This document shows positions 26,838 through 36,378 of a stretch of 64,000 bases of DNA, piece by piece. The stretch is from contig NZ_JAHKQH010000040.1 of the NCBI RefSeq assembly GCF_018861025.1, forward strand, positions 62,001 through 126,000, read 5' to 3'. Within the stretch, counting starts at the first letter, position 1. Every line of letters begins with the position of its first letter. The notes under the pieces were generated by a model. That model worked only from the letters and a program-made list of their open reading frames with translations, was not told where the DNA came from and did not search any database. This stretch comes from Psychrosphaera sp. B3R10 (GTDB taxonomy: Bacteria > Pseudomonadota > Gammaproteobacteria > Enterobacterales > Alteromonadaceae). The position numbers and the translations under genes are program-made.

Positions 26838-29198
26838 TTAGATTTTTGTTAATTTAGCGTAAGTTGTCACAAGCCACTTAGCACCAAACTGATCAAAATT
26901 AACCTGAATACGGGAGTTGTCACCATCTCCTTCACAGTTTAACACTGTACCTTCACCAAATTTTGCATGTTGCACGCGTTGGCCTAGACCAAAGGCACTT
27001 TCAGAAAACTTTATGTGGCTGGCAGAAGCACCATAGTTGCTTTTCGATTTTGATTGGCCAGATCCGTAGCCCGTCGAACTACCATACTGAGAACTCGGTT
27101 TGTAACCGCTGTTAGCATTTCCTGAGCCACTGCCGCCTTGACCGTAACTCGACTGTCTTGGCTGACTGGTAGTTAGCTTGATTTCATAAAGACACTCTTT
27201 TGGGATCTCTGAAATAAATCGCGATGGTCGGTGATAATGCTCTTGTCCATACATCCGGCGAGATTCGGCGTGTGTTATGAATAATTTTTCCATCGCACGG
27301 GTCATACCGACATACGCTAAACGACGTTCTTCTTCTAGTCGTTCCGGCGCATCCGAGCTTTGTTGACTCGGGAACATACCTTCTTCAACGCCAACCAAAA
27401 ACACCATTGGGAATTCAAGTCCTTTTGCACTGTGCAATGTCATTAACTGCACCGCATCTTCAAAGGCGTCAGCTTGAGATTCACCAGACTCTAATGATGC
27501 GTGGGATAAAAATGCCGCTAACAGAGGCATTTCCTGCATGTTTTCGTCAGGTTCATATTGGCGACACGCGGTGACTAATTCCTCTAAGTTTTCGACTCGA
27601 GTTTGTCCTTTTTCGCCTTTTTCGGCTTGGTACATTGCTTTTAAACCAGACGACTGAATGACTTGGTCAGCTTGTTCATGTAGCGGTAAATCGGCAACAC
27701 CAGTTTCTAGGTTTTGTACTAAATCCATAAATCCACGCACAGCCGTCATTGCTCTTGCTGCCATGGCTTTTTCGTCTATTAGTCGGCCAGCGGCCTGCCA
27801 CATAGTTAAATTTTGGCTACGTGCGGCATCACGGATGGTTTGCAGTGATTTTTCACCGATACCACGGGCCGGAGTATTAATAACACGTTCAAATGCAGCG
27901 TCATCGTCACGGTTAGATACCATACGTAAATAGGCGAGTGCATCTTTGATTTCTTGACGTTCAAAAAATCGTAAACCACCGTAAATTCGGTACTTAATGC
28001 CACTTTGTAACAAGGCTTCTTCCAGCACACGTGACTGAGCATTGTTACGATACAATATGGCGGTTTCTGATAATGAACCACCTTCTTCCTGCCATTTTTT
28101 AATATTACCCGCCACAAAACGAGCTTCGTCTAAGTCGTTAAATGCGGTATAAAGCCCAATCGGGTCGCCTTCACGCCCTTCCGTCCACAAGTCTTTGCCA
28201 AGTCTGTCACTATTATTAGCAATAACTGCATTGGCCGCTTTTAGAATATTGGCGGTAGAACGATAGTTCTGTTCGAGCCGGATCATTTCTACCGATTCGA
28301 ATTCTTTTTGGAAATTGTGAATATTTTCAACACGAGCCCCGCGCCAACCATAGATTGATTGGTCATCGTCGCCAACAATCATCACATGTGCTGCTGGAAT
28401 ATCATCTACCATTGCACCGGGGTTACTCCCAGACAACAATCTGATCCAGGCATACTGAATGCTATTGGTATCTTGAAACTCGTCCACCAATATATGGCGG
28501 AATCGCTTGCGGTAGTGATTTAAAATATCGCTATGCGTGGCCAATATCTCATGACTGCGGAGCAGTATTTCGGCAAAGTCGACTAAGCCAGCACGGTCAC
28601 AGGCTTCTTGATACGTTTTGTACACCTGCAACATGACCTGTTCCGTTGGATCAAACGACTCGATATGTTTTGGTCGTAGCCCTTCATCTTTTTTGCCATT
28701 GATGTACCACATGCATTGTTTTGGCGGATAGCGCTTTTCATCCAAATTTAGGCTTTTCATTACACGGCGAATTAACCGATGCTGATCGTCAGAATCCAAA
28801 ACTTGAAAGCTTTCAGGTAAGTTGGCTTCACGAAAGTGCGTTCGTAAAAAGCGATGCGCCAAACCATGGAATGTGCCTATCCACATGCCACTTGAACCAT
28901 AAGCAGAGCCCACCGCTCCCTGGCCTAATAGTGACTCTAAACGATGGCGCATCTCCGCCGCCGCTTTATTGGTAAACGTTACTGCCATAATTGAAAATGG
29001 CGAAACTTGATGAGCGCGGATCAAAAAACCAATACGGGAAATCAATACTTTGGTCTTTCCCGAACCCGCACCTGCCAAGATCAGCATATTTTGCGGTGCC
29101 GCAGTCACGGCTTCATATTGACGTTCATTGAGTTCGTTGAGCTTTAAAGTCTGAGTATCTGCCGAACCTGTATCGGCCGACGGAATATAAACGTCCAT
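26838..29198 (-). CDS. uvrD: DNA helicase II (UvrD)
   Basis: This superfamily 1 helicase unwinds DNA in nucleotide excision and mismatch repair. All motifs are seen: AGAGSGKT (Walker A), VDEFQDTN, GDDDQSIYGWRGA, LEQNYRST, TLHSAKGLEFP and EERRLAYVGMTRA. I chose the ATG at 29198, which gives MDVYIP, like the MDVS start of E. coli UvrD; the frame extends to a TTG at 29222. A Ser/Gly/Tyr-rich linker leads to the Tudor-like C-terminal domain (GLGQRVQHAKFGEGTV). The product is 786 residues, against 720 in E. coli. yigB just upstream matches E. coli synteny. Confidence 0.96.
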   Translation of the reverse strand: MDVYIPSADTGSADTQTLKLNELNERQYEAVTAAPQNMLILAGAGSGKTKVLISRIGFLIRAHQVSPFSIMAVTFTNKAAAEMRHRLESLLGQGAVGSAYGSSGMWIGTFHGLAHRFLRTHFREANLPESFQVLDSDDQHRLIRRVMKSLNLDEKRYPPKQCMWYINGKKDEGLRPKHIESFDPTEQVMLQVYKTYQEACDRAGLVDFAEILLRSHEILATHSDILNHYRKRFRHILVDEFQDTNSIQYAWIRLLSGSNPGAMVDDIPAAHVMIVGDDDQSIYGWRGARVENIHNFQKEFESVEMIRLEQNYRSTANILKAANAVIANNSDRLGKDLWTEGREGDPIGLYTAFNDLDEARFVAGNIKKWQEEGGSLSETAILYRNNAQSRVLEEALLQSGIKYRIYGGLRFFERQEIKDALAYLRMVSNRDDDAAFERVINTPARGIGEKSLQTIRDAARSQNLTMWQAAGRLIDEKAMAARAMTAVRGFMDLVQNLETGVADLPLHEQADQVIQSSGLKAMYQAEKGEKGQTRVENLEELVTACRQYEPDENMQEMPLLAAFLSHASLESGESQADAFEDAVQLMTLHSAKGLEFPMVFLVGVEEGMFPSQQSSDAPERLEEERRLAYVGMTRAMEKLFITHAESRRMYGQEHYHRPSRFISEIPKECLYEIKLTTSQPRQSSYGQGGSGSGNANSGYKPSSQYGSSTGYGSGQSKSKSNYGASASHIKFSESAFGLGQRVQHAKFGEGTVLNCEGDGDNSRIQVNFDQFGAKWLVTTYAKLTKI

Positions 29199-29256
29199 AC
29201 AAAAATAACCTTTTAATGGCAAAAAGAGATCGAAAAACTGGATCTATAAACAGGTA

Positions 29257-29973
29257 TTATAACAGCTGTAACAAATCATCCAAGTCTGAATATTCACCAT
29301 CGGCTAAATGGCTTAAAGGATTGATTTTTTGCTCAGGGTTAAACCACAAACTTGAACAACCCGCATTTAGCGCGGCACCTACATCTGTCTCTGAGTTATC
29401 ACCCAAGTGCAGAATATGTTGTGGAGCAATATCCAGCTGCTCTGCCGCTTGAATTAACATATCAGGATAAGGCTTCATTCGAATACCAGGCTGCCCCGCT
29501 CGATAATACGCCGCAAAATAAGGCGCAAGGCCAATGCGTTCAATGTCAGCATTACCATTTGTTGCGGCGATCAATGGAAAGCGCTCAGCCAGTTTCGCTA
29601 GCACATCAAAAGTCTGTTGCGGCACCACAAAATCAGAACGCGCAGTGTAAAACACATCAAATATGTGACTATTCAGCGCTTCTATATCATGACCGGATAA
29701 GTCAAACATAGCTAAACCTTGTCTAATCATGGTTTTTCGCCAATGCGTAACATCGTGACGAATTTCAGGATCGTCAATTGCCAGCTGCCACTTTAACGCT
29801 ATCCAAGGGTCAATGCCCACTTCCTTAGCCGCGGGAACCCGTTCACAAACCGCGTCAAATTGGGCCTGTTCTGCACGGACAATCACTTCGTCGTTGTAAT
29901 AAAGGGTGTCGTCCAAATCAAAGCTAATCGCTTTAATTTGCGAACCAAAGGGTCGATTAAAACGCAGTGCCAC
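29257..29973 (-). CDS. yigB: HAD-family phosphatase YigB (FMN/ARPP phosphatase type)
   Basis: The 238-residue protein has the same length as E. coli YigB and follows it along its sequence (RPFG..I.A..FDLDDTLY, RHDVTHWR, VPQQTFD, ATNGNADIERIGL, LHLGDNSETDVGAALNAG). HAD motif I is DLDDT and motif IV is GDNSETDVGAA. YigB dephosphorylates ARPP and FMN in riboflavin synthesis. It starts at GTG with a GAGAGG site. The yigB-uvrD pair is conserved in gammaproteobacteria. Confidence 0.9.
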   Translation of the reverse strand: MALRFNRPFGSQIKAISFDLDDTLYYNDEVIVRAEQAQFDAVCERVPAAKEVGIDPWIALKWQLAIDDPEIRHDVTHWRKTMIRQGLAMFDLSGHDIEALNSHIFDVFYTARSDFVVPQQTFDVLAKLAERFPLIAATNGNADIERIGLAPYFAAYYRAGQPGIRMKPYPDMLIQAAEQLDIAPQHILHLGDNSETDVGAALNAGCSSLWFNPEQKINPLSHLADGEYSDLDDLLQLL

Positions 29974-30286
29974 AAAAACCTCTCATTAAGAAATCAAATT
30001 CGCGTCAGTCTAACACGGCCGATTCGTCGACAACACTGTACTTGTAAGTGATAAATCTCATTTAACAGCTGAGCTTAAATGGCCTATAGATACGGCGCAA
30101 AGGCGTCAAAAACCGTGTATTTTTAAAATGAAAATGGCATTTAACCCGATACTGGCACGTTTGTTGAAGATTTGTTCACTATCAGATTTATTAAGTTCAC
30201 TAATTTGTTGTGGCAACTGAGATACTCAGAATCTAACGAAAAGCCCTAAATCAGTAGGCAGAGACGCCAATAAAGGCGGAGGACAG
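29974..30286 (+). other. Promoter region and leader of the glucosylglycerate operon (313 bases)
   Basis: The stretch separates divergent yigB and the kinase gene. Short hairpin-forming segments are visible: ACGG-CGC-AAAG-GCG...CCGT (about 30092-30116), CTGAG-ATA-CTCAG (30217-30229), and CGCC-AATAAA-GGCG that borders the GGAGG ribosome site (30278-30282). I recognise no known riboswitch and no clear promoter. The dyads could be operators or RNA structure. Confidence 0.4.
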
Positions 30287-31174
30287 ATGGAAAATAGTTT
30301 TATAAAAGACTTTATCGCTAAACATAAACTCGGTGGATCATTTTGTGACATTGCACCAAAATGGTTCATTCCAGTAGCAAAACAAGTCTTACTTAAATCC
30401 ACGACGAAATCTGCACCTCTGTTTATCGGTATTAATGGCTGCCAAGGTTCGGGCAAGTCAACTTTGACCGACTTTATTGCCGATTACCTTAGACAATCTG
30501 CAGGATTAACGGTTGCTGTTTTATCTCTTGACGACTTTTATCTAGATAAAGACGACCGCAATAAACTTGCAACGACAATCCATCCCTTATTTAAAACCCG
30601 TGGTGTGCCTGGTACACATAATACAAAATTAATGCGCCAAGTATTAATGGGATTACGACAAAACAACTTACCCATTGCGCTGCCTCGATTTAATAAGGCC
30701 ACTGACAATCCACATCCAAAATCTAGCTGGCCGGTGATTTCTGAGACACCTGACATTGTAATCTTTGAAGGCTGGTGCTGGGGCGTTCCCCCACAGACTG
30801 AGGAAGAACTTGCCTCTCCAACAAATACATTGGAAACCGATTTAGATAACACCGGGGCTTGGCGAACATACAGTAACTCAATGATTGAGAAAGAATATTC
30901 GCCCCTTTATTTAATTATGGATTATTGGCTGATGTTAAAGGCACCTTCTTTCGAATGTGTCTCCCATTGGCGAAAAGAACAAGAACATAAACTTGCGGAA
31001 AAAACGCAAGGAACCGGTACTGCAGTGATGTCCGATAGCGAAGTAGAAACTTTTATCCAACACTATCAACGCCTTACTGAACACAGCTTAGAGCACGTGC
31101 CATTTATCTCTAATATCGTACTAGAGCTAGATCACAATCGAAATATTTTGTCCGCCAACGGACTGGAGCAATAA
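30287..31174 (+). CDS. D-glycerate 3-kinase-like P-loop kinase
   Basis: The 295-residue protein has a Walker A GCQGSGKST (51-59) and the layout of the plant/yeast glycerate kinase family (GLYK, Tda10): SLDDFYL after the P-loop, RGVPGTHN and IFEGWCWGVPP. These enzymes phosphorylate D-glycerate to 3-phosphoglycerate with ATP in the cytosol. It is the first gene of the four-gene operon and is followed by the phosphatase after 2 bases. In this setting it would recover the glycerate freed by the phosphorylase. A GGAGG site lies 4 bases before the ATG. Confidence 0.85.
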   Translation: MENSFIKDFIAKHKLGGSFCDIAPKWFIPVAKQVLLKSTTKSAPLFIGINGCQGSGKSTLTDFIADYLRQSAGLTVAVLSLDDFYLDKDDRNKLATTIHPLFKTRGVPGTHNTKLMRQVLMGLRQNNLPIALPRFNKATDNPHPKSSWPVISETPDIVIFEGWCWGVPPQTEEELASPTNTLETDLDNTGAWRTYSNSMIEKEYSPLYLIMDYWLMLKAPSFECVSHWRKEQEHKLAEKTQGTGTAVMSDSEVETFIQHYQRLTEHSLEHVPFISNIVLELDHNRNILSANGLEQ

Positions 31175-31176
31175 AG

Positions 31177-32007
31177 TTGTACAGACAATTAATCATATTC
31201 ACCGACCTCGATGGCACATTACTTGACCATCACAGCTACAGTTATGCTGCTGCATTGCCAATGCTAGAGAAGTTACAAGAACACCATATTTCGGTTATCC
31301 CAAATACATCTAAGACTTTTGCAGAAGTACAACAACTACGTAATGAATTAGCGCTGCAAACTCCTTTTGTCGTCGAAAACGGCGCGGCAATTTATATTCC
31401 CGACGGATTTTTTGACCAACCACCAGCAGATTGTGAGTTAAAAAATGGGTATTGGCGAAAAGCCTTTAGCCGGGAACGTAATTACTGGCTTGAGCTTATA
31501 ACTGCCAATAGCAAAGACTTAGACGGTGCGTTTAAAGGCTTCTCCAAAATGTCGGATGAAGAACTGAGCTTAGCGACTGGGCTGTCAACAATCGATGCGA
31601 GCCAAGCCAATGACCGTCAATTCAGCGAACCCTTACATTGGTTGGGCACAGAACAACAAAAAACCTTATTTAGTAATCGCATGAAAAGTGCCGGTGCAAA
31701 CGTGCTACAGGGCGGTCGATTTCTACACATTAGCGGTCAGTCGAATAAAGGCATAGCACTGCGTTGGTTAACTCAAGAATTTTCGCGTCAAAATACAAAT
31801 ACTCAATTCAAGTCTGTTGCTTTGGGGGACAGCTTTAACGACAACGACATGTTAGAAAGCGCTGACATAGCCGTACAGATCAAGACATCCAAACACGATT
31901 TTCCAAAGCTCTTTCGCACTGATGCCATTTGGCAGAGTACCAAGATGGGCCCCAAGGGCTGGGCCGAATGTCTGGATCAAATATTAACTCAAGAATTACA
32001 AATCTAA
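31177..32007 (+). CDS. gpgP: Glucosyl/mannosyl-3-phosphoglycerate phosphatase (HAD, MPGP family)
   Basis: The 276-residue HAD phosphatase has motif I TDLDGTLLDHHSY (nucleophile D10, D12) and motif IV LGDSFNDNDML. It belongs to the MPGP-like Cof family that removes phosphate from glycosyl-3-phosphoglycerate. Because the next gene is a GT81-like synthase, glucosyl-3-phosphoglycerate is the likely substrate, giving glucosylglycerate. It starts at TTG with a GGAG site. The mannosyl version is not excluded by sequence alone. Confidence 0.82.
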   Translation: MYRQLIIFTDLDGTLLDHHSYSYAAALPMLEKLQEHHISVIPNTSKTFAEVQQLRNELALQTPFVVENGAAIYIPDGFFDQPPADCELKNGYWRKAFSRERNYWLELITANSKDLDGAFKGFSKMSDEELSLATGLSTIDASQANDRQFSEPLHWLGTEQQKTLFSNRMKSAGANVLQGGRFLHISGQSNKGIALRWLTQEFSRQNTNTQFKSVALGDSFNDNDMLESADIAVQIKTSKHDFPKLFRTDAIWQSTKMGPKGWAECLDQILTQELQI

Positions 32008-32019
32008 TGGAGCAATAAC

Positions 32020-33264
32020 ATGGCTGACTTTTATCAAAACGGTATAGTTACAACACTGCATAACCTGACAAATCGCAGTATCGAAGATCTCGAGTCAGAA
32101 CTTACCGAGTTCTCTAAAAAGCGGCCTCTAGGTCTCATTTTACCTTCACTTTTTTCTGAATTAGAAGGTAAAGCATTACCCGATATCATCAGTAAAATAG
32201 CTGAAGTCCCTTATCTTTCTCAAATTGTAATCGGCCTCGACCGTGCAAGCCTTGACGAATACAAACACGCAATCAACTTCTTCTCTACCTTGCCTCAACA
32301 CCACAGGATCCTATGGAATGATGGTCCAAGATTGCAAGCACTAGACAAAAAATTACAAGCATTAAATCTAGCACCTACGGAGTTAGGTAAAGGCCGAAAT
32401 GTTTGGTATTGCATGGGTTATGTATTGGCCTCTGGTAAAGCAGAATCGGTCGCCCTGCATGACTGCGATATTTTAACCTATGAACGCAGCCTACTGGCTC
32501 GTTTGATTTATCCAGTGGCAAATCCACAATTTAACTACGAATTTAGTAAAGGCTATTACGCCCGCGTCGCTGACAAAAAACTCAATGGCCGAGTCGCTCG
32601 ACTACTCGTTACTCCGCTGTTAAAAGCCCTCAAAAAGGTATTAGGCGACAATGATTATTTAGAATATATGGACAGTTTCCGATATTCATTATCTGGCGAA
32701 TTTTCGTTCCGTCGTGATGTATTAACTGACTTAAGAATTCCAAGTGACTGGGGCTTAGAGATTGGGGTGTTATCTGAAATGCACCGCAACTTTGCATCAA
32801 ACCGCATTTGTCAGGTCGATATTGCAAATAACTACGACCATAAACATCAGGACTTATCACTTGAGTCTACCGATGGTGGTCTAAGTAAAATGTCGATAGA
32901 CATTTCCAAAGCACTGTTTAGAAAATTGGCGACTCAAGGTTATATTATCAATGCTGAAAACATGCGTACCATTAAAGCGACTTACTTCAGAATTGCATTA
33001 GACTATATAGAAACCTATCGAAATGACGCGATGATTAACGGCTTAACGTTAGACACTCATACCGAAGAAAAGTCAGTTGAGATGTTCGCACGTAATATCA
33101 TCGAAGCCGGTGAGAGCTTTATCGCTAACCCAATGGAAACGCCATTTATTCCGTCTTGGAATCGTGTCGTGAGCGCCATGCCAAATGTATTAGAAGAATT
33201 GAAGCAAGCTGTTGAAGAAGACTTTGAAGAGTTTTCCAAGATAGCACAACCAAACGCAGTATAA
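32020..33264 (+). CDS. gpgS: Glucosyl-3-phosphoglycerate synthase-like glycosyltransferase (GT81)
   Basis: The 414-residue glycosyltransferase of the GT-A fold has the DxD-type metal motif D148-C-D150 in ALHDCDIL, preceded by GKGRNVWYCMGY and followed by ARLIYPV and EFSKGYYAR. It resembles the GpgS enzymes of bacteria such as Persephonella, which transfer glucose from NDP-glucose to 3-phosphoglycerate. Product would be glucosyl-3-phosphoglycerate. It sits after its phosphatase (12-base gap) and before the phosphorylase (12-base gap). Family is quite sure; glucose rather than mannose is inferred from context. Confidence 0.82.
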   Translation: MADFYQNGIVTTLHNLTNRSIEDLESELTEFSKKRPLGLILPSLFSELEGKALPDIISKIAEVPYLSQIVIGLDRASLDEYKHAINFFSTLPQHHRILWNDGPRLQALDKKLQALNLAPTELGKGRNVWYCMGYVLASGKAESVALHDCDILTYERSLLARLIYPVANPQFNYEFSKGYYARVADKKLNGRVARLLVTPLLKALKKVLGDNDYLEYMDSFRYSLSGEFSFRRDVLTDLRIPSDWGLEIGVLSEMHRNFASNRICQVDIANNYDHKHQDLSLESTDGGLSKMSIDISKALFRKLATQGYIINAENMRTIKATYFRIALDYIETYRNDAMINGLTLDTHTEEKSVEMFARNIIEAGESFIANPMETPFIPSWNRVVSAMPNVLEELKQAVEEDFEEFSKIAQPNAV

Positions 33265-33276
33265 AAAGGAGCCACT

Positions 33277-35037
33277 ATGAACGACGCTGTTACCGAGCTT
33301 AGTCAAAAGTTAGAACATCAGTTAGGGCTCATCTATGCCGATGTTACATTGGACCGTTCTATCCAAGAATTTCGCCAGCAATTGCTAGACGAAATGCGAT
33401 TAGGTGCCGAGGTAAAATCCCCGGTTCCTTTTGCCAATCATTGGGACGAAAAAGACATGATCTTGATCACCTACGGTGACAGTGTCATTCAGTTAGGTGA
33501 AAAGCCATTAAAAACCCTTGATGGCTTTATGGATAAACACTTTGGCTCAAGTATTAACAGTGTTCATATATTGCCGTTTTTTCCTTATAGTTCAGACGAT
33601 GGGTTTTCCGTCATAGACTATTCGAGTGTTAACGAATCACTCGGTGATTGGTCTGATATCTCAGCTATCGCTGGCAAACGAAAGCTAATGTCCGATCTGG
33701 TAATCAACCACTGTTCTAGTCGTAGTGTGTGGTTTGAAAACTTCATAAAAGGCGAGGGCAAAGGTAGCGATTACTTTTTTACGGCCCAACCAGACGATGA
33801 CTTATCTGCTGTAGTTCGGCCTAGAACCAGCCCTCTGCTTAGAGAAACAGAAACAGCACAAGGCACAAAACATGTTTGGTGTACCTTTAGTCACGATCAG
33901 GTCGATTTAGATTTCCGCAATCCCGACGTCTTGATCGCGTTTGTTTCCATTATTCGCCAGTATCTCGATGCTGGCGTATGTATTTTCCGCATGGATGCCG
34001 TGGCGTTTTTATGGAAAATTGTTGGTTCAAACTCAATAAACTTAATGCAAACCCATGAAATTATTAGGTTATTGAGAACCCTGATCGAACATGCCGTTCC
34101 AGAAGCCGTGATCATTACCGAAACCAATATCCCTAACACCCAAAACTTAACTTACTTTGGCAACGCCAATGAAGCGCATTGTATCTATAATTTCTCGTTG
34201 CCGCCGTTACTGGTCAATACGTTAATTACCGGCAGTTGTTTGTACCTTAAACGTTGGTTAATGAGTATGCCACCTGCACAAAATGGCACATCGTATTTCA
34301 ACTTTATCGCATCGCACGATGGGATCGGTTTAAGGCCTGCAGAGGGCTTGTTGAGCGATCAAGAGCTCAATAGTCTCGTTAGCACAATGCAAAACTTTGG
34401 TGGTCGCGTCAGTTGGCGGACAAGTGAAGATGGTGAGCAAAAAGCCTATGAAATTAACATTGCCTTATATGATGCATTGCAGGGCACAGTAAATGGTGAA
34501 GATAAATGGGGATTGGAGCGTTTCATCTGTGCACATGCCGTCATGTTTGGCTTAGAAGGGATCCCAGGGATTTACCTCCACAGTATGCTGGGTACTCGTA
34601 ATGACTATGAAAAGTTAAAAAATACTCATCATAATCGTGCGATTAATCGACATCGTTGGGATTTACCAAGCTTAAACGAGCAATTGAAACAACCTAAAAA
34701 CGCACACTCTAAAGTGTTGTCACGGATGTTAGAGCTTATCGACATCAGAACAGCACAACCGGCGTTTCACCCAAATGCCACCCAGTTTGTTTTGCACTTA
34801 GGATTACAATTATTTGGTTTTTGGCGACAAAGCTTAGACCGAAAACAAAGTATCTTTTGTGTCAGTAACATTAGCGATCAACCACAAACTCTCAGATTAA
34901 GTGAAATCAATTTAATCGCAACAGATCCATGGGTTGATTTAATAACAGCACAAACCATTGAAGACACAACAGAAGATGTGACGTTAACACCATATCAAAC
35001 GGTGTGGCTGACAAATTACGCAGGTGAGAATAGCTAA
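33277..35037 (+). CDS. ggaP: GH13_18 phosphorylase, probable glucosylglycerate phosphorylase
   Basis: This 586-residue GH13 protein is of the sucrose phosphorylase subfamily 18. Conserved regions: DLVINHC (I), [12 protein letters not shown] with nucleophile D240 (II), ITETN with acid/base E282 (III), and [13 protein letters not shown] with D348 (IV). It is longer than sucrose phosphorylases (about 490-500) and carries the SHDGIGLRP segment I associate with glucosylglycerate phosphorylases such as E. coli YcjM, rather than the sucrose enzyme. Expected reaction: glucosylglycerate plus phosphate gives glucose-1-phosphate and glycerate. The neighbouring kinase, phosphatase and synthase support this over sucrose. 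Confidence 0.8.
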
Positions 35038-35063
35038 AAAGTCGCTATTTGATTTTTGAGATT

Positions 35064-35094
35064 GCCGCGATAGTAGTAAATTCACTGTCGCGGC
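35064..35094. terminator. Hairpin between convergent operons, probable two-way terminator
   Basis: GCCGCGATAGT and ACTGTCGCGGC form an 11-bp stem with one wobble pair and a 9-base loop. It lies 27 bases after the phosphorylase stop, between convergent genes; the T run is weak. Confidence 0.6.
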
Positions 35095-35117
35095 TTATTA
35101 AAGAAGCTTTTAACAAG

Positions 35118-35582
35118 TTATATCCAGCGTCGAACTCGAGTTACATACTCGTCATATTCCTCACCAAACATCTGCCTTAATATTTTTTCCTCTGGCTTAA
35201 TTTGAAACTGAACCATATACAGAACAAATACCACCAAAAATGCTAGGTTAGCAATAATGCCGAGATAAACACACCAGCCCGTCAATACAAACAACATTCC
35301 AAGATACATTGGATTACGAGTAATACTGTATATGCCGGTCGATACAACTCGGCTTGTTTCATTAGGCTTAACTGGGTTTACTGTGGTTTTAGCTTGATCA
35401 AATTGCATCACACCTGCGGCAATTACAACAAGTCCAAACCCAGCTAAAATACCGCCAACTTCTGTCTGTCGTGCAAATTCAAATAAACTGAGATCCAATG
35501 TTTTAACAAGTGTCATAACTACCATCAAAATAATGACTAATAACACGGGTGGCAATTTCAGCTCTAACCAAGTTAACTTCAT
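35118..35582 (-). CDS. Isoprenylcysteine methyltransferase-like (ICMT/PEMT family) membrane protein
   Basis: The 154-residue protein has about four membrane helices and the ICMT-type SAM-binding motif near the end: TGIYSITRNPMYLGML, then KPEEKILRQMFGEEYDEYVTRVRRWI. Bacterial members methylate small or lipid-like substrates, mostly unknown. No prenylated protein target is expected in this organism. Stands alone with 61 bases to the next gene. Confidence 0.82.
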   Translation of the reverse strand: MKLTWLELKLPPVLLVIILMVVMTLVKTLDLSLFEFARQTEVGGILAGFGLVVIAAGVMQFDQAKTTVNPVKPNETSRVVSTGIYSITRNPMYLGMLFVLTGWCVYLGIIANLAFLVVFVLYMVQFQIKPEEKILRQMFGEEYDEYVTRVRRWI

Positions 35583-35643
35583 ATACTTCCTTGCTTGTTG
35601 TTCAATTTTTAATATTTAAGTTTCTAATGCTTACGAATGGCAC

Positions 35644-35838
35644 TTATTCGTTTATCTGATTCGGCTTATTTTCCCTTGTTGGTCTAAGTACCAGTGTTCC
35701 TTGACAATTGGGGCACACGTTCGCCATTGCCGCTGTACAGTCTTCACAAAAGGTACATTCGTATGAGCAAATATACGCTTTTTTTTGTTCTAACAGTGAG
35801 CCAGTGCATTTTTCACACGCGGATTTCATTTCTAACAT
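35644..35838 (-). CDS. DUF1272 small zinc-ribbon-like protein
   Basis: The 64-residue protein has eight Cys in paired motifs (CEKC, CSYEC, CEDC, CPNC), the spacing of the DUF1272 family, which probably binds zinc. Function is unknown. It lies between the ICMT-like gene and the DUF1439 gene on one strand, 15 bases from the latter, so it may be transcribed with it. Confidence 0.82.
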   Translation of the reverse strand: MLEMKSACEKCTGSLLEQKKAYICSYECTFCEDCTAAMANVCPNCQGTLVLRPTRENKPNQINE

Positions 35839-35853
35839 ATGTGCCTCTATTTG

Positions 35854-36378
35854 TTAAAACAGACTCAGTTCAACTTCAACAGCTTCGTCAATAACCTTAA
35901 TGCTTTTGATGGTCGACTTAGCTAATTTTTGTTTCATGTCGGTATCGTCTAATTGATAAATTGGGTATTTTTTTAACGCTTTAGCGACTAGCTTCTCTAC
36001 CGATTTTTTAATCTTAGGTTGTATAGCCGTTGGCACATCATTAAACGCCAATTTTGCGACCTTAGGGTTTTGTAAATAAAACGCACCTTCTTTGGTGCGA
36101 TATTCAACATCACCTGTAACTCCAACCAAACCTGAACCGCCTAAACCACCAGGGCCAGAAGCGGTGATCGTCGCTTCAATATATAGCGCGTCCTGGCCAG
36201 ATTTCAAGGCGATTTTGGGGTCGCTTATTTTCACCTTAACAAAGTACTTTGTGCGTTCCAGCGGCATCATTTGATCTAACTTTTGTTGGATCTCACTTTG
36301 CTGAATTGTTTTAGTCAATCCCAAAGCCCACAAATTACAACTAGCGACTAACAACAAGAAAACGAATACAACTTTCAT
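35854..36378 (-). CDS. DUF1439 secreted protein (YceB-like)
   Basis: The 174-residue product has a signal peptide (cleavage near LWALG, or a lipid anchor at the Cys in VASC) and the DUF1439 body with alternating strands, matching E. coli YceB in size and general pattern. Such proteins resemble lipid-binding tubular folds; the function is not established. Its start overlaps the stop of the HD gene by 4 bases, so the two are translationally coupled. Confidence 0.78.
   Translation of the reverse strand: MKVVFVFLLLVASCNLWALGLTKTIQQSEIQQKLDQMMPLERTKYFVKVKISDPKIALKSGQDALYIEATITASGPGGLGGSGLVGVTGDVEYRTKEGAFYLQNPKVAKLAFNDVPTAIQPKIKKSVEKLVAKALKKYPIYQLDDTDMKQKLAKSTIKSIKVIDEAVEVELSLF

Follow-up and report, generated by a model that had tools for sequence, protein, structure and literature searches.

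A conserved sigma-54-like element and NtrC-type boxes suggest a nitrogen switch for the glucosylglycerate make-and-recycle operon of Psychrosphaera and other marine Gammaproteobacteria

What switches on an operon that encodes both the making and the recycling of one solute? The question is raised by four genes at positions 30287-35037 on the + strand of the window, the stretch of 64,000 nucleotides (nt) of the 4.74-Mb genome of Psychrosphaera sp. B3R10 that was analysed. They encode a GLYK-like D-glycerate 3-kinase, a GpgP-type phosphatase, a GpgS-like synthase and a GH13_18 phosphorylase, predicted to form a make-and-recycle cycle for glucosylglycerate. The original prediction, which recognised the cycle, took the placing of synthesis and breakdown on one transcript to mean that regulation acts on the enzymes themselves, through salt or phosphate for instance. 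The operon has, however, a conserved sigma-54-like element together with boxes of the NtrC type, which point to a transcriptional response to nitrogen limitation, and we consider it likely that NtrC and sigma-54 induce the whole operon under nitrogen shortage, with metabolites setting the direction of flux.

Alignment of the upstream regions within the genus revealed one conserved block, TGGCAC[AG]N4TTG. In the window it lies at 30153-30168 and agrees with 11 of the 12 positions of the sigma-54 promoter consensus, TGGCACG-N4-TTGCW; the one departure is an A for the C in the -12 GC. TGGCACRN4TTGWW has this single match in the 64 kb (0.16 expected; at least one match in 15 of 100 shuffles), and the element was found in the six same-genus genomes with the operon, the window's counted, as well as in genomes G022 and G023. 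For a wider survey we used 80 named gammaproteobacterial loci, the best 80 of at least 575 phosphorylase matches. Scored against the sigma-54 consensus, 44 of the 80 loci reached at least 10/12 within 400 nt, versus 68 of 3695 random segments of those loci; a pattern derived from the sites, picked after the consensus-score result was known, occurred in 69 of 80 loci versus 25 of 4492 control segments. The spacing of this pattern is fixed, a gap of 4 being found in 69 of 79 usable loci and any other between 0 and 10 in at most 7 of them, which leaves 10 usable loci lacking it; counted by clusters of GpgS at 85%, gap 4 occurs in 20 of 27 and any other gap in at most 3. A sigma-70 scan found no site upstream of the operon (the stretch holds 8 sites versus 12.4 in shuffles). 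A search of 29000-36000 against Rfam gave no match up to E 1, and thus no known riboswitch family was found at the operon.

Boxes of the NtrC type were scored on a 14-position consensus. A whole-window pattern search ranked the box at 30352-30368, which has one mismatch, as the best in the window, and five same-genus relatives hold a box at the same place in the kinase gene. Between -300 and +220 of the match to the first open reading frame (ORF), boxes of at least 12/14 were present in 44 of 79 loci versus 12 of 1725 control tiles, and boxes of at least 11/14 in 66 of 79 versus 56 of 1725, the tiles being mostly coding DNA and therefore not matched to upstream composition. At the stricter threshold, the box lies before the ORF match only in 15 loci, inside it only in 29, at both in none, and is absent from 35. 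Relative to the -24 element, which can be placed in 69 named loci, 10 have the box above, 34 below and none both; genome G030 has boxes on both sides if a score of 11 is accepted. The boxes lie within the first gene in Psychrosphaera, Alteromonas and others, and upstream, above the element, in Shewanella, Thalassotalea, Colwellia, Marinomonas and others.

An unguided k-mer search above the element, in which NtrC was not specified, returned among its top motifs TGCACCA in 27 of 68 sequences versus 34 of 521, and GCAC-N7-GTGC, the NtrC box itself, in 11 of 68 versus 5 of 521. Separately, the palindrome GAAAGATTTTC was observed in 12 of 77 sequences, all from Alteromonas. It lies about 120 nt above the -24 element in L059, L062, L063, L067, L068, L070, L071, L074, L075, L077 and L082, and 233 nt above it in L065.

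Since the intragenic boxes overlie the kinase N-terminus, synonymous recoding was run on 70 codons, with 400 synonymous versions for each of 66 kinase sequences. Boxes of at least 12 were found in 30 of the 66 N-termini, versus 2.36 expected, and totalled 40 versus 2.38; the first intragenic position accounted for 21 (0.68 expected) and the second for 19 (1.69 expected). Chance palindromes, or constraint by the protein, as the cause of the intragenic boxes are thereby rejected for the set; for the window taken singly the rejection is not a strong one.

The boxes also follow the operon among relatives. A box of at least 11 was present in 19 of 20 operon kinases (17 of them at 12 or more), versus none of 8 stand-alone kinases, and the sigma-54 pattern in 17 of 20 versus 2 of 8. 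Inside the gene these boxes are found 65 and/or 106 nt from its start, and in G036, by projected start, at 23 and 64 nt; those upstream lie at distances of 97 to 233 nt. The comparison took 20 of the 26 relatives' operon kinases; the window, G002, G003, G022 and G023 were examined separately, and G051 is in neither group. Relatives and named loci share genomes (G018 is L090 and G010 is L078, for example), for which reason neither set is independent of the other. The second, stand-alone GLYK of G036 (L148) carries a sigma-54-like element and has no NtrC box.

Within the 4.7-Mb genome, just two places come within one mismatch of the NtrC box, namely this operon and the region upstream of glnA, the glutamine synthetase gene adjoining ntrBC, where a 13/14 box lies 143 nt before the ATG; a reversed-pattern control gave no match. 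The genome also encodes RpoN, as well as a full NtrC that scores 752.8 bits (cut-off 558.6). The element and the palindromes might instead belong to another regulator. The -12 half deviates from TTGCW: in the window, as in most Alteromonadales loci, the canonical C is missing (TTGAA, TTGTA or similar); Alteromonas has its additional palindrome; and the genome's three own PII loci, taken as further positive controls, hold no box of at least 11. These features would suit a different regulator, which we nevertheless regard as quite improbable. The spacing is fixed, Halieaceae-type loci have a canonical CTGCT as their -12 half, and TTGTA also occurs in E. coli at the sigma-54-dependent pspA promoter; in this genome, moreover, no other box is as good except the one that precedes glnA.

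Several observations tell against a switch by NtrC and sigma-54, beyond the -12 deviation, the silent PII loci and the mostly coding control tiles already mentioned. A box of at least 12 is missing from 35 of the 79 loci and is found in any member of just 14 of the 27 GpgS clusters; many of the 80 loci are close relatives and hence not independent, and the intragenic boxes at the two positions span just 3 and 4 clusters. Among gapped motifs the k-mer search ranked GAAA-N3-TTTC highest, which is a feature of Alteromonas and not the NtrC box. Spacing is weaker when judged by consensus score (gap 4 in 44 of 79 loci, gap 1 in 17, others in at most 9; by clusters, gap 4 in 14 of 27 and others in at most 5). 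For the window by itself the excess is modest, 1.25% of recodings equalling its box score, as the A-P-K-W-F stretch of the protein supplies part of the box. Finally, the window has this one box and none was found in the upstream search, for which reason activation from inside the ORF has to be assumed.

Repression from inside the gene is the main rival to activation: the intragenic boxes could be true NtrC sites that repress, pause transcription or serve another promoter. The position of the boxes in 34 of the 69 loci with a -24 element, below it and mostly within the first ORF, speaks for such a role. We hold it to be unlikely, given that 10 of those loci, in Shewanella, Thalassotalea, Colwellia, Marinomonas and others, have boxes above the element in the usual place of an enhancer, and that none of the 79 loci holds both positions at 12 or more, as if one function had moved. 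Downstream enhancers of sigma-54 promoters are, moreover, known for flagellar activators. NtrC binding and activation from within the gene are what we infer.

The cycle that this switch would serve was traced enzyme by enzyme. The four ORFs lie on the + strand with gaps of 2, 12 and 12 nt, in the layout originally predicted (Table 1). The kinase resembles solved D-glycerate 3-kinases (PDB 6ckg, E 7.4e-23; 7xpc, E 8.7e-19) and carries a GSGKST P-loop; no Pfam or NCBIfam model reaches its cut-off, the nearest being Pfam PRK, a broader family than GLYK, at 21.3 bits versus a gathering score of 22. It is the sole GLYK match of its kind in the genome, where the other glycerate kinase families PF02595 and PF13660 were not found by searches that were positive in 5 and 4 of 14 control genomes, respectively. 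The phosphatase belongs to HAD-IIB, scores 373.4 bits against NF001218 (cut-off 362) and has MpgP among its PDB matches. The phosphorylase is closest to GH13_18 phosphorylases of solved structure and shares 38% identity with E. coli YcjM (212/557). Glucosylglycerate phosphorylases are marked by a (T/S)ETN motif and by a loop-A Glu where most other clades have Gln, as described in a review (PMC7178133). Both markers, TETN and the Glu of KAYE, are present in the window's enzyme and in all 108 aligned rows (the window, E. coli YcjM, the 80 named loci and 26 from relatives, with the window again and some duplicates included), whereas the solved relatives 7qqi and 7xdq have Gln in loop A. Going by these markers, the enzyme would presumably act on glucosylglycerate.

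The synthase is less straightforward. It matches NF040724 (GpgS_Meth) at 372.5 bits over near-full length, below the cut-off of 700, and NF010496 at 66 bits (cut-off 262), and a Pfam search gives no match. Sequence search against PDB GpgS gives E 2.6e-5; Foldseek with a model of mean predicted local distance difference test score 68.5 places mycobacterial GpgS first (E 1.3e-8) and also matches the mannosyl enzyme of R. xylanophilus. The HDCDI motif of DxD type is invariant in 19 of 19 sequences. The enzyme is, judging from these searches, GpgS-like and not a member of NF040724 or NF010496; because the curated cut-offs are missed and mannosyl enzymes also match by fold, we infer its sugar donor from the phosphorylase. 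Mannosylglycerate would be the product if the shared fold and the NCBIfam name of GpgP, MPGP, were taken at face value. This we consider very improbable in view of a phosphorylase with glucosylglycerate markers, a synthase whose best curated match is GpgS, and the absence of a GT55 mannosyl-3-phosphoglycerate synthase from the genome, in a search positive in 1 of 14 control genomes.

The four-gene arrangement is common and far beyond chance, with the order GLYK-GpgP-GpgS-phosphorylase in 65 of the best 80 loci. Among 60 relatives, GpgS occurs in 29 genomes; a phosphorylase above 500 bits accompanies it in 28 of these and is found in none of the other 31, and GLYK above 100 bits in 26 of 29 with GpgS and 6 of 31 without. 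This co-occurrence, the markers in 108 of 108 rows and the lack of PF02595, PF13660 and GT55 in the genome strengthen the originally predicted cycle. A reservation comes from 13 of the 80 loci that have no GLYK in the operon, including Shewanella L031, L032, L036, L046 and L047. At these 13 no replacement kinase was recognised by eye among the nearest upstream + strand ORFs listed (at least 150 amino acids), the locus alone being examined.

Several individual loci depart from the common arrangement. GLYK and GpgP are fused in a single ORF in 4 of the 80 loci (L037, L087, L104 and L110) and in L012 and L017 among the 29 relatives' loci, a fusion that joins a recycling enzyme to a synthesis enzyme. 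A Thalassotalea metagenome-assembled genome has GLYK and phosphorylase only (L033:5075-7740), GpgP and GpgS missing at the locus, which looks as if breakdown alone remained. One operon of the 80, L079, is interrupted by a contig end. The GpgS of G009 (G009:C1:1931548-1932767) falls in two matches, and one stop interrupts each of the phosphorylase matches in G013 (G013:C1:1962325-1964058) and G036 (G036:C1:3031709-3033532); these three genomes may therefore have a decaying operon or sequencing errors there. The gene before the kinase-less operon of L102 (L102:1356-3551) encodes a type III glutamine synthetase (PF12437, 223.9 bits), a neighbour in keeping with a link to nitrogen.

Around the operon, the kinase gene is separated from a divergent HAD-type ORF by 313 nt. 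The stable hairpin 3' of the last gene is a possible transcript end, although a terminator scan based on T-runs did not pick it up. Ectoine synthase was not found in the genome, in a search that was also silent in every control genome and is thus uninformative.

Table 1. Coordinates of the operon genes and associated elements in the window (aa, amino acids)
Feature	Position	Strand	Details
GLYK-like D-glycerate 3-kinase	30287..31174	+	295 aa, ATG start; predicted glycerate to 3-phosphoglycerate
GpgP, MPGP-type HAD phosphatase	31177..32007	+	276 aa, TTG start; NF001218 and PDB MpgP matches
GpgS-like glucosyl-3-phosphoglycerate synthase (predicted)	32020..33264	+	414 aa, ATG start; GT81-like fold, HDCDI DxD-type motif
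GH13_18 glucosylglycerate phosphorylase (predicted)	33277..35037	+	586 aa, ATG start; TETN residues 281-284, loop-A Glu 392
Sigma-54-like -24/-12 element TGGCACGTTTGTTGAA	30153..30168	+	TTGAA at -12 instead of TTGCW
NtrC-type box TGCACCAAAATGGTTCA	30352..30368	.	within kinase ORF from codon 22; 13/14 consensus positions
Stable hairpin 3' of last gene	35064..35094	+	fold of 35036-35110: -24.2 kcal/mol, z -3.87

Taken together, a scheme can be proposed in which GpgS would join uridine diphosphate-glucose to 3-phosphoglycerate and GpgP would take off the phosphate to give 2-O-alpha-glucosyl-D-glycerate; in recovery, the phosphorylase would use phosphate to release glucose-1-phosphate and D-glycerate, the latter being returned to 3-phosphoglycerate by GLYK. 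Nitrogen shortage would lead to phosphorylated NtrC and to its looping to sigma-54 polymerase at the -24/-12 element (30153-30168), upon which the four enzymes would all be expressed. Within the genus of the window, NtrC would bind inside the first gene, 3' of the promoter, and act by DNA looping. Glucosylglycerate, nitrogen-free and anionic, may then take the place of nitrogen-bearing solutes, and once nitrogen is back the pool would be phosphorolysed to glucose-1-phosphate and 3-phosphoglycerate. By the arithmetic of the pathway, one turn with all four enzymes active would burn about one uridine triphosphate and one adenosine triphosphate, which makes some metabolite control of direction likely; phosphate, glucosylglycerate and 3-phosphoglycerate could set whether the pool fills or drains.

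Enzyme-level control may still have a part in deciding flux direction, and on that point the original prediction may be right; its claim that a shared transcript implies such control is not supported. In its full form, that reading has an operon that is either constitutive or responsive to salt or phosphate, regulated solely through its enzymes, with glucosylglycerate as a general osmolyte or carbon buffer. The presence of both arms in one operon speaks for it and means that direction is at least partly set by metabolites; we think the reading improbable as a whole, given the conserved sigma-54-like element and the NtrC-type boxes, with their strong controls. The low-nitrogen role, listed among the checks of the original prediction, gains from the same two features. 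Extending the proposed nitrogen switch to the survey, we lean towards the view that marine Gammaproteobacteria run a nitrogen-free osmolyte cycle under NtrC and sigma-54, and that several lineages moved the enhancer into the first gene, which would thus encode a kinase and also switch on its own operon from downstream.

How does this operon compare with known systems? The gene association was reported with the discovery of glucosylglycerate phosphorylase (Franceus et al. 2017, as reviewed in PMC7178133). The neighbourhoods covered in the available part of that review resemble the present one in placing a GH13_18 enzyme with TETN and the loop-A Glu beside glycerate kinase, GpgS or GpgP; their phosphorylase was proposed to regulate the solute level, its metabolic function is said there to lack experimental confirmation, and that part describes no transcriptional control for them, whereas such control is predicted here. 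A Prochlorococcus operon, according to PMC11631117, likewise serves both to make glucosylglycerate and to recycle it to glucose-1-phosphate and 3-phosphoglycerate; it has a putative transporter, whereas the four genes here include none. Gene content and cycle are thus known, and with synthesis and recycling in one operon already published the enzymology is ordinary; the predicted nitrogen switch, which the comparisons support well, would be the new part. No description of sigma-54, RpoN or NtrC control of a glucosylglycerate operon was found in the open-access papers searched; PMC3870243, PMC3662644 and PMC4950008, in the parts available, have glucosylglycerate in their reference lists only.

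The E. coli ycjM operon (L119) offers a different contrast, with a homologous phosphorylase that has the same markers; unlike here, no GpgS, GpgP or glycerate kinase is among the genes listed for its 18-kb stretch, and the ABC (ATP-binding cassette) transporter genes that come next suggest a role in uptake and breakdown there. Prochlorococcus being a cyanobacterium, sigma-54/NtrC control is not expected in it. Glucosylglycerate is reportedly a nitrogen-stress marker in mycobacteria and is said to be a solute of cyanobacteria from nitrogen-poor waters; the switch proposed here, if true, would be another, independent wiring of this solute to nitrogen shortage, besides those suggested for these two groups. 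It would give the operon a defined signal and make the choice of osmolyte in nitrogen-poor seas a regulated, nitrogen-saving response, a prediction that is simply testable in culturable marine bacteria such as Alteromonas, Shewanella and Colwellia. NtrC/sigma-54 enhancer-promoters such as that of glnA have the same type of box, whereas in the window the box is placed within the first ORF, 3' of the element. The operon would thereby provide a natural case of an enhancer held in coding sequence at fixed codons, and relatives with the upstream version allow the two to be compared.

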